Shown one piece after another: positions 15,703-18,544 of a DNA stretch of 37,955 bases (position 1 is the stretch's first letter; every line of letters starts with the position of its first letter). The stretch spans positions 1 through 37,955 of the IMG/VR virus record IMGVR_UViG_3300027793_000022. One strand, given 5' to 3'. Below the pieces are notes generated by a model. It was not told where the DNA came from. It ran no database searches and was given only the letters and a program-made list of their open reading frames with translations. The position numbers were made by a program, and so were the translations under genes. The stretch comes from a virus.

Positions 15703-15902
15703 TTATATAACGCTTTTCTAGCATTTTTAATACATGGAACATCATGCCATTGTGGGTCATTATTTGTAAATACTTCTATTAACCATTCTAAAGCATAAGC
15801 TAACTCTTCATTTTCTTTTACAATTTTTTTTCTAATATGAGCTTCATCCATGACATCTTTATGCACTTTAGCTAACCATAGTTTAGTATTATGTTCTTGC
15901 AT
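15699..15902 (-). CDS. Small helical phage protein, unknown
   Basis: This 67-residue, mostly helical protein (KIVKENEELAYALEWLIEVF) ends PCIKNARKALYK. It starts at the stop of the cell-wall-hydrolase gene (one-base overlap) and ends in an ATGA overlap with the next gene. The role is unknown. Confidence 0.55.
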   Translation of the reverse strand: MQEHNTKLWLAKVHKDVMDEAHIRKKIVKENEELAYALEWLIEVFTNNDPQWHDVPCIKNARKALYK

Positions 15903-16279
15903 TAGTAAAACACCATCCTTCCTATGTGAGTAATTTTTTTATGACCAAACCACGAATGTTTTGGCATAATTGAGTCATCATGAAAGTATAGCGCATTTGC
16001 CACTGGATTCGCATATTTTCCACGCATAACATCAAGAACAAATAATTCAGTTTTAAGAAACGTAACTTTGTCAACAGGTGCATGTTTTTCATCCTGTACA
16101 GCAAACTGACCAGAAGCATAAATAACATCGCATACAGACTTACCCCAGCGACCAGATTTAACACGATTATGAATAGTGTAATAAACACCCAATTTCTCCT
16201 CTAATGTTCTATTATTAACTTCATGGTAAAGTGCCGTAGCATAGCACGAAACTTCTAGTTCTAAGTTATGTATATCCAT
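15902..16279 (-). CDS. SleB-like cell-wall hydrolase (Hydrolase_2 type)
   Basis: This 125-residue protein carries the SleB/Hydrolase_2 core: ALYHEVNNR (residues 16-24, with the conserved Glu20), GVYYTIHNRVKSGRWG (31-46), CDVIYASGQF (50-59) and later ANALYFHDDS. SleB-type enzymes cleave peptidoglycan glycan strands. No signal peptide is visible. Its placement in the leftward block, away from the holin, is unusual. GAAAGG precedes its ATG. Its start region diverges from the pqqA-like gene. It could act in lysis, or in local wall opening during infection. Confidence 0.8.
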   Translation of the reverse strand: MDIHNLELEVSCYATALYHEVNNRTLEEKLGVYYTIHNRVKSGRWGKSVCDVIYASGQFAVQDEKHAPVDKVTFLKTELFVLDVMRGKYANPVANALYFHDDSIMPKHSWFGHKKITHIGRMVFY

Positions 16280-16300
16280 TACAGACCTTTCATGGTTTTC

Positions 16301-16332
16301 TTGTGTCTAGTAATCCCATACAGGCGTATAAT
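16301..16332 (+). promoter_or_regulatory. Candidate promoter of the pqqA-like gene
   Basis: A perfect TATAAT lies at 16327-16332, 34 bases before the pqqA-like ATG. The -35 region is poor: TTGTGT at 16301-16306 with a 20-base spacer is the best match. A second TATAAA lies at 16338-16343. A weak -35 could mean activator dependence. Confidence 0.4.
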
Positions 16333-16365
16333 TCTACTATAAATCTAAAAGAAAGGAGAAACGCC

Positions 16366-16437
16366 ATGTGGACAACACCATCAGCAACTGAAATGCGCTT
16401 TGGATTTGAAGTTACTATGTACGTAATGAACAAGTAA
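16366..16437 (+). CDS. pqqA: PqqA-like PQQ precursor peptide (23 residues)
   Basis: This 23-codon gene encodes a peptide starting MWTTPSATEMR and ending FGFEVTMYVMNK. It aligns without gaps to the 23-residue PqqA of Klebsiella (MWKKPAFIDLR..., ...GLEVTLYISNR). It keeps MW, P5, R11, G13 and the E15-V-T-x-Y19 core. In PQQ synthesis PqqE, with the chaperone PqqD, links Glu15 to Tyr19 of PqqA; proteolysis, PqqB and PqqC then complete the cofactor. AGGAG at 16354-16358 stands 7 bases before the ATG, and a rho-independent terminator follows 6 bases after the stop. It is a stand-alone plus-strand cassette within minus-strand genes. No pqqB-F genes are present, so the host must supply them. The likely role is to raise the supply of a precursor consumed one per PQQ. 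Confidence 0.9.
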   Translation: MWTTPSATEMRFGFEVTMYVMNK

Positions 16438-16443
16438 ATAAAT

Positions 16444-16468
16444 AGGGGAGGTCAAACTCCCCTTTTTA
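16444..16468 (+). terminator. Rho-independent terminator after the pqqA-like gene
   Basis: GGGGAG (16445-16450) pairs with CTCCCC (16457-16462) around a 6-base loop, extended by one A-T pair and followed by TTTTT. It ends next to the stop codon of the leftward SSB-like gene at 16469. Read leftward, the hairpin is followed by TATTTATTT, so it may also work weakly on the early transcript. Confidence 0.85.
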
Positions 16469-16717
16469 CTAGAAGGGTAAATCACTTTCGTCATCCCCTT
16501 CAACTGCTGGTTTACTTCTTGTTTCACCCTGAACTTCTTTTAGCTGCAATTGACCTGAAATAAATTTACCGTTCTTACCGTCTCTAATCCAACCACTCAT
16601 TCTAAATTCAATGCCATCAAGATTTGCTGTGCCGGCATAGTTTGGTCGTTTAGGATTGTCCCCCTGGTCGTTCTTAAATAATACAAAAGTATTTGTATTG
16701 TCATATTGTTGCGCCAT
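16469..16717 (-). CDS. SSB-like protein (DUF736-related fold, acidic tail)
   Basis: This 82-residue protein has NTFVLFKNDQGDNPKRPNYAG, then GIEFRMSGWIRDGKNGKFIS, similar to DUF736-type small beta proteins. It ends in DDESDLPF, the acidic, Phe-terminated tail by which SSB proteins recruit partners. It lies downstream of the exonuclease and annealing protein, which supports a single-stranded DNA-binding role in recombination. AAAGGAGTAGTAT precedes its start. Confidence 0.7.
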   Translation of the reverse strand: MAQQYDNTNTFVLFKNDQGDNPKRPNYAGTANLDGIEFRMSGWIRDGKNGKFISGQLQLKEVQGETRSKPAVEGDDESDLPF

Positions 16718-18097: not shown

Positions 18098-18147
18098 ATT
18101 ATATACCCCCAAAATACAAAAATAAATAGCCATAACCATTTATTCAT
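18082..18147 (-). CDS. 21-residue membrane microprotein
   Basis: A single hydrophobic helix, MNKWLWLFIFVFWGYIIWRM. It starts in an ATGA overlap with the preceding microprotein and overlaps the next gene by 16 bases. No role known. The Trp/aromatic-rich helix and coupling make it plausible. Confidence 0.45.
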   Translation of the reverse strand: MNKWLWLFIFVFWGYIIWRMV

Positions 18148-18239
18148 ATTGCACCTGCTAACTTGCCCATAATGTAAAGGCATAATGCTACATAAGCGTA
18201 GAAAAATACTACTGTGATAATCATTGTTGAAATTTTCAT
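18144..18239 (-). CDS. 31-residue membrane microprotein, first gene of leftward unit
   Basis: The product starts MKISTMIITVVFFYAYVALC and is a single transmembrane helix ending MGKLAGAI. AGGAGA stands 6 bases before the ATG, directly behind the leftward promoter. It is therefore probably the first protein made from this operon. The function is unknown; host takeover or superinfection exclusion is possible. Confidence 0.6.
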   Translation of the reverse strand: MKISTMIITVVFFYAYVALCLYIMGKLAGAI

Positions 18240-18256
18240 GTCATCTCTCCTAAAAA

Positions 18257-18287
18257 TTGACAATTGAACTTTAAGCTATAGTAAAAT
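18257..18287 (+). promoter_or_regulatory. Possible rightward early promoter
   Basis: TTGACA at 18257-18262 and TAAAAT at 18282-18287 have a 19-base spacer, longer than ideal. It would transcribe the rightward genes from 18368 and overlaps the leftward promoter face to face. TTTACA near 18329 is an alternative -35 but lacks a good -10. Confidence 0.35.
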
Positions 18288-18296
18288 ACCTGTCAA
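18268..18296 (-). promoter_or_regulatory. Leftward early promoter
   Basis: On the minus strand TTGACA (18296-18291) is followed after exactly 17 bases by TAAAGT (18273-18268), a near-consensus sigma70 promoter. Transcription would begin near 18260, about 20 bases before the first small gene of the leftward unit. Confidence 0.75.
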
Positions 18297-18302
18297 GTAT
18301 TT

Positions 18303-18317
18303 TCTAGTAAATAACTA
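18303..18317. promoter_or_regulatory. Palindrome, candidate operator
   Basis: CTAGTAAATAACTAG is an inverted repeat with 5-bp arms (CTAGT/ACTAG) and a 5-base centre. It lies 7 bases upstream of the leftward -35 box, in the only sizeable non-coding gap between the divergent units (18240-18367). No regulator gene is identified for it. Confidence 0.4.
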
Positions 18318-18367
18318 GCAAAAAAATAGTTTACAAATAATATGAATTCGTGTTAAGGTTTTGACCT

Positions 18368-18544
18368 ATGGAGATATTACGCTATATTATATTAGACGAA
18401 TTTGATGGAAAACCTTTGAGAGCCTTTAGTAACAAGGCATCTGCTAAATGGTTTCTTGAGAATAGACCTAATTGTAAGCTCCATGTTTTACCTAAAGCAA
18501 AGTCTGTGCCAGTCACAGAATTATATGAAGAATGTTTATTTTAA
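18368..18544 (+). CDS. Small phage protein, first gene of rightward unit
   Basis: This 58-residue protein begins MEILRYIILDEFDGKPLRAF and continues NKASAKWFLENRPNCKLHVL, a mixed beta/alpha pattern seen in small phage proteins. AAGG stands 9 bases before the ATG. It is the first gene after the divergent promoter region. The role is unknown. Confidence 0.6.
   Translation: MEILRYIILDEFDGKPLRAFSNKASAKWFLENRPNCKLHVLPKAKSVPVTELYEECLF

Follow-up and report, generated by a model that had tools for sequence, protein, structure and literature searches.

Introduction

The closest described phage system is that of the Lake Baikal methylophage populations VP_139 and VP_266, which carry methanol dehydrogenase, with PqqA present in VP_266 (PMC7678222). 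In its accessible part, that account likewise proposes that phage PqqA supports methanol oxidation, presents the genomes as T4-like, metagenomic and equipped with their own methanol dehydrogenase, and describes no operator for either population (PMC7678222); here, in contrast, pqqA stands by itself and turns up repeatedly in methylophages that are not related to one another. The report of a Lake Baikal methylophage with both PqqA and methanol dehydrogenase means that phage PqqA has already been reported once (PMC7678222), whereas the operator presented below is apparently new. The closest host system is the pqqA of the Methylophilaceae, whose genomes hold 3–12 solitary copies each (PMC4109929). 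Host PqqA (TIGR02107/PF08042) is the same peptide in the same solitary arrangement of operator, promoter, ribosome-binding site, gene and terminator. The phage units differ from it in location, in an operator that often lies at about −42 (class II) rather than the approximately −65 of most hosts, and in a −10 element reading TATAAT rather than the TATAGT type.

A further parallel is found in cyanophages, whose metabolic genes can be under host control, for example the pho-box genes that respond to the host PhoB. The pqqA locus would resemble these in combining a phage metabolic gene with a promoter that contains the site of a host regulator, but its product is a consumable RiPP substrate of 23 aa and not an enzyme or transporter. 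Our preferred reading, to which we assign a probability of about 0.7, is that the locus constitutes an autonomous, monocistronic and host-regulated pqqA unit supplying PQQ precursor during infection, its activating mode of control, its timing and its PQQ benefit being putative.

Layout of the locus

The window analysed was the whole of the linear IMG/VR virus record IMGVR_UViG_3300027793_000022 (37,955 bases), and the terminase, portal and major head protein genes on it indicate a genuine phage genome. The cassette (16280–16468) and its neighbours comprise the following features.

16287–16306, plus strand: candidate operator of a host PQQ regulator, CTTTCATGGTTTTCTTGTGT; dyad core at 16290–16304 with a degenerate right half-site (matrix scores)
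16327–16332, plus strand: −10 element TATAAT (sequence); predicted transcription start near 16339
16353–16358, plus strand: ribosome-binding site AAGGAG (sequence), 7 nt before the ATG
16366–16437, plus strand: pqqA, 23-aa PQQ precursor peptide with Glu15/Tyr19 (ExxxY) (PF08042, TIGR02107, pN/pS)
16444–16468, plus strand: intrinsic terminator, hairpin 16444–16463 followed by a T-run; resembles a terminator on the minus strand as well
16469–16717, minus strand: SSB-like gene, convergent neighbour and end of the recombination module (PHROG 18154 single-strand DNA binding protein, 52.8 bits)
15902–16279, minus strand: cell-wall hydrolase (SleB/Hydrolase_2 domain), divergent neighbour (PF07486, 60.7 bits; PHROG 938 endolysin, 42.1 bits)
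16331–16341, minus strand: possible divergent −10 (TATAGT/TAGAAT) for the SleB-like gene, deduced from a conserved block

The first-pass annotation had described a TATAAT at 16327, an AGGAG, a 23-codon gene and a terminator between two leftward genes, all of which were confirmed from the sequence. It had also placed the terminator against the SSB-like stop, and indeed the T-run extends to 16468 and the minus-strand stop codon occupies 16469–16471 directly after it. The operator-like site at 16287–16306 was missing from that account. The SleB-like ORF start and the pqqA ATG share a spacer of about 86–87 nt. The SleB equivalog model scored the neighbouring hydrolase at 28, far below its cut-off of 236.

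The PqqA peptide

The product of the plus-strand ORF at 16366–16437 (23 codons and a stop), MWTTPSATEMRFGFEVTMYVMNK, is a genuine PqqA. Its whole length matched the PqqA family Pfam PF08042 at 41.3 bits (cut-off 21.1), and a second PqqA model, NCBIfam TIGR02107, scored 38.5 bits (cut-off 20). The peptide contains E15 and Y19 of the ExxxY motif, the residues that form the PQQ skeleton, and is identical to a host copy. This Glu/Tyr pair was invariant in the viral PqqA examined (58 distinct sequences of the lineage). In the lineage pqqA is under strong purifying selection, with a pN/pS of 0.13 at a synonymous divergence near 0.46 over the same 58 distinct sequences, from loci located through the flanking genes and not through pqqA itself. 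As a selected gene of host type in a genuine phage genome, pqqA is a candidate phage auxiliary metabolic gene; cultured methylophages carry it too.

Variation at the locus was found in both the peptide and its surroundings. A peptide of the GMEITAYV type occurs in L215 and L220 in otherwise similar surroundings, and the variant alleles MWTTPSVTEIRLGMEITAYVFNR, MWTKPTAVELRFGMEITAYVMNK and ...TLYVMNR (L215, L220, L188) lie at the same site with conserved flanks. These variants represent in-place allele replacement. Leaders and terminators were likewise found to be swapped among members of the lineage.

Retention of pqqA within the lineage

Relatives were sought through the SSB and SleB flanking genes, so that the presence of pqqA was not itself the criterion. 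The gene was found in the same opposed position in 52 of the 55 SSB relatives; of the three exceptions, L177 is a contig that stops short of the site, and L182 and L183 are distant GC-rich phages in which the neighbouring genes differ. Among the newly fetched SleB-type loci it was present in 76 of 79, the remaining three (L211, L226, L253) being truncated. Every related contig of the lineage that reaches the site has pqqA between the SSB-like and SleB-like genes. Recurrent sporadic insertion was rejected, as no empty site was found and all six exceptions are either distant or truncated. The cassette is an old, fixed component of the lineage and no stray insertion.

The suggestion of the first-pass annotation that the cassette form reflects acquisition as a unit, for which it had proposed a comparison of related phages for insertion or absence, holds only in part. 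The unit of operator, promoter, ribosome-binding site, pqqA and terminator is indeed solitary in hosts and stands at unrelated places in unrelated phages. Within the lineage, however, the comparison turned up no empty site; the unit is old and fixed in all relatives reaching the site, and alleles and flanks have been exchanged in place.

Occurrence among methylophages and their hosts

A tblastn search of 50,697 phage records recovered PqqA in P19250A, Venkman, MEP301, MEP401, MEP402, four Melnitz genomes and one environmental podovirus. All nine of the Methylophilales/Methylophilaceae phage records found (9/9) carry the peptide, and in none is it annotated as pqqA, the gene being either unannotated or hypothetical. 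In MW202481.1 (2067–2195; L004) and MZ577097.1 (76100–76195; L008) the deposited annotation places an antisense ORF over it, and the papers on Venkman, MEP301, MEP401/402 and Melnitz make no mention of pqqA as a phage gene.

Relatives in IMG/VR were collected by degenerate DNA patterns and flanking-gene queries. The degenerate pattern matched at least 120 IMG/VR stretches, and among the matches listed a full PqqA was encoded in 120 of 120. No pqqB, pqqC, pqqD or pqqE was found near viral pqqA in about 260 viral loci, in a search that detected its positive control. This control was the contig of 'Acinetobacter phage MD-2021a' (CAKLQF020000010.1; L009), which was rejected as a phage: it carries pqqBCDE, ppk (polyphosphate kinase) and 5'-nucleotidase and looks like a bacterial chromosome. 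On the host side, pqqA was present in 149 of the 150 Methylophilaceae genomes searched, often in multiple copies, which agrees with the published figure of 3–12 per genome (PMC4109929).

A second class of viral PqqA, of the Y..[IVL]RLGFE..MYF type, was also observed (L013, L021, L023, L029, L036, L040, L048, L056 and L063). Several of these genes lie within 10 nt of a codirectional upstream gene and nearly all are without the operator. The carriers are probably phages of other PQQ-using hosts.

An operator shared with host pqqA genes

Phages and host methylotrophs share a near-palindromic dyad, TMATGA-N3-TCATKA, ahead of pqqA, and the phage site looks like a copy of the one that serves the PQQ genes of the host. 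The k-mers enriched before pqqA were TCATGAAAATCATGAG in hosts and, independently, TTAATGATTTTC and CATGGTTTTC in viruses; the host box reads TCATGAAAATCATGA. Matrices trained on one group recognized the other. Scores above 10 bits were obtained with the host-trained matrix for 50 of the 88 viral leader clusters, where 0.9 would be expected, and with the virus-trained matrix for 84 of the 118 host leader clusters, where 1.1 would be expected. Within the viral contigs, host-matrix matches were also concentrated in pqqA leaders, at 140 times the density of the remaining sequence. The site at 16287–16306 was the best match of the window to the viral matrix (16.0 bits) and was still the top match when the matrix was trained without its own lineage (13.6 bits); with the host-only matrix it scored 8.6 bits and ranked fourth of 37,936 positions.

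The operator followed the type of peptide: among viral leader clusters it accompanies 63 of the 78 whose PqqA is Methylophilaceae-like, versus 1 of the 10 whose PqqA is of another type. Roughly one viral leader cluster in five has no such site. The cultured phages P19250A, Venkman, MEP301 and Melnitz show it clearly, but in MEP401/402, which do have pqqA, the site is weak or absent. Methylophaga, a gammaproteobacterial methylotroph, has a related box, CTCAGGA-AAA-TCCTGAG, before pqqA. An operator restricted strictly to the Methylophilaceae was rejected on the basis of this variant and of some Comamonadaceae leaders that also score. No description of the motif was found in the open literature searched, which leaves out most subscription journals.

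In 20 host genomes the exact operator pattern occurred 0–5 times per genome, and a reversed control pattern occurred only once in total. Thirty-five host sites were examined: a pqqA follows 25 of them at a distance of about 100–150 nt, pqqB follows two, genes for PqqU-like TonB receptors follow two (in two hosts), and xoxJ, itself directly behind a PQQ dehydrogenase gene, follows one. Because host sites precede pqqA, pqqB, PqqU-like receptors and xoxJ, functionally linked genes sharing one operator, the motif marks a host PQQ regulon. Operator-like sites also precede katG and a pentapeptide-repeat protein gene (host loci L467 and L437), which have no obvious PQQ link; these may represent chance or a wider regulon.

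Transcription unit and orientation

The first-pass annotation treated pqqA as an independent plus-strand transcription unit. This was supported by the distance to the codirectional upstream gene in viral clusters, with a median of 89 nt for pqqA versus 4 nt for other genes (P = 7e-9), and by terminators far above chance. Among the other viral clusters, 44 of 99 have a terminator-like hairpin behind pqqA, where 1.5 would be expected; for host clusters the figures are 97 of 142 and 2.7. Ribosome-binding sites of the AAGGAG/AGGAG type stand before nearly all viral and host pqqA listed. In many viral leaders (e.g. L161, L064, L012, L107, L085 and L151) a short inverted repeat was seen between the −10 and the ribosome-binding site, where it could stabilise or regulate the mRNA; it is not evident in the window. 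No known structured RNA family of Rfam came near threshold.

The opposed orientation of the cassette raises an alternative, that early leftward transcription of the recombination module passes through the hairpin and silences pqqA, which would be expressed only late. In favour of this alternative, the opposed layout is kept throughout the lineage, and the minus-strand tail of the hairpin, ATTTATTTAC, has a weaker T-run than the plus-strand tail. Nevertheless, at cluster level the layout is not enriched, with 3 of 43 viral pqqA clusters versus 41 of 535 background gene triples having both neighbours on the opposite strand, whereas the operator is enriched. Opposed orientation as a selected general trait was rejected on these counts, and the layout is mainly a trait of one large lineage cluster; the cultured phage Venkman has it as well. 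In addition, the window hairpin matches the terminator pattern on both strands, it is more stable than shuffled sequence on both (z of about −3), and a hairpin recurs at the pqqA/SSB junction of the lineage while its sequence changes. Silencing by antisense transcription is thus improbable.

The first-pass annotation had offered as its other possibility a hairpin that also stops the leftward RNA, with the genes beyond using another promoter. Since the hairpin is terminator-like both ways and recurs with changed sequence, the better fit is a bidirectional terminator, with the SleB-like gene served by a promoter of its own. Such a hairpin would probably shield pqqA from transcription of the recombination operon. 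Of the 73 distinct lineage leaders, 35 retain a block TATAATnCnA(C/T)TATA, and the SleB-like gene may, tentatively, use a divergent −10 within the shared spacer. In most relatives (L134, L190 and others) one arm of the junction hairpin consists of the last SSB codons (DEDVPF stop) and the hairpin has no T-run, unlike the window terminator.

Promoter elements and operator position

No sigma-70 pair with an acceptable −35 was found in 16270–16480. In the two largest upstream clusters every distinct leader retains the TATAAT (28 of 28 and 17 of 17). Across the window this hexamer is depleted (29 occurrences versus 60 expected from dinucleotide shuffles), so that its presence in the cassette reflects more than AT-richness; the depletion suggests selection against stray −10 elements. 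A phage-specific repeated promoter was rejected, as GYGTATAAT occurs only twice in the window, which is chance level. Elsewhere in the window, at 18140–18455, the leftward recombination genes and the rightward replication genes diverge, and the minus strand of this region contains TTGACA-17-TAAAGT (18296–18268), likely an early leftward promoter.

The distance between the operator centre and the −10 falls into narrow classes, 51–54 nt in hosts (40 cases versus 2.5 in shuffled sequence) and either 28–32 or 51–54 nt in viruses (18 TATAAT cases versus 1.1 expected). In the window it is 30 nt, within the 28–32 class. Taking the −10 to begin at −12, these distances place the operator near −42 (28–32 nt) or −65 (51–54 nt), where class II and class I activators, respectively, classically bind at CRP/FNR-type promoters. 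The class II position of the window operator would explain the absent −35. Fixed helical spacing to the −10 and a poor −35 are the properties of an activator promoter, and two fixed distances about two helical turns apart without a −35 form an activator signature. From this spacing we infer that the host regulator is an activator and not a repressor.

The same signature bears on the possibility that the operator binds a host repressor, or that the phage copies act as a sponge titrating the host regulator, PqqA output being secondary. The outline of the dyad is like that of Fur-type boxes, Fur-type proteins usually repress, and phage replication multiplies the site. Against this stand the two fixed distances to the −10 without a −35 and the strong purifying selection on pqqA itself, and we consider repression or titration as improbable as antisense silencing.

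Proposed role during infection

For a host-regulated pqqA unit acting through an activator, the following sequence is proposed. A host activator, which would also control the host's scattered pqqA copies and other PQQ genes, would bind the dyad at 16287–16306. Bound at about −42, it would replace the −35 and recruit host RNA polymerase to the TATAAT at 16327. The predicted RNA of ~130 nt (about 16339–16468), ended by the hairpin, would be translated into PqqA, and host PqqD, PqqE, PqqB and PqqC would use this up one-for-one to make PQQ. With this PQQ, the methanol dehydrogenases that depend on it would stay active during phage replication. Because PqqA would be consumed one-for-one, dosage from replicating phage DNA would matter.

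That PqqA serves another purpose, either raising PQQ to lower the PqqU-like receptor and so hinder superinfection or competing with host peptide processing, is very improbable: the operator type does precede PqqU-like receptors in two hosts, but phage PqqA keeps the residues of a normal substrate, the window peptide equals a host copy and we know of no phage of these hosts that uses PqqU.

Significance for methylophages and methylotrophs

It is fairly probable that methylophages in general share one standard form of a host-regulated pqqA unit: unrelated phages would employ a 'PQQ box', bound by an activator of methylotrophic beta- and gammaproteobacteria, to tie the supply of a consumable RiPP precursor to the PQQ demand of the host. 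In coastal seas and lakes, much of the methanol is oxidised by streamlined Methylophilaceae, and their key dehydrogenases require PQQ. If most of their phages have pqqA under host control, infection probably sustains methanol turnover, and the 23-codon pqqA, overlooked by gene callers, would be a methylophage marker. The cultured pairs of Venkman or Melnitz on H5P1 and of P19250A on IMCC19250 offer phage–host systems for this question. The operator would provide a handle on the regulator of PQQ and methanol metabolism and open the host PQQ regulon to discovery.
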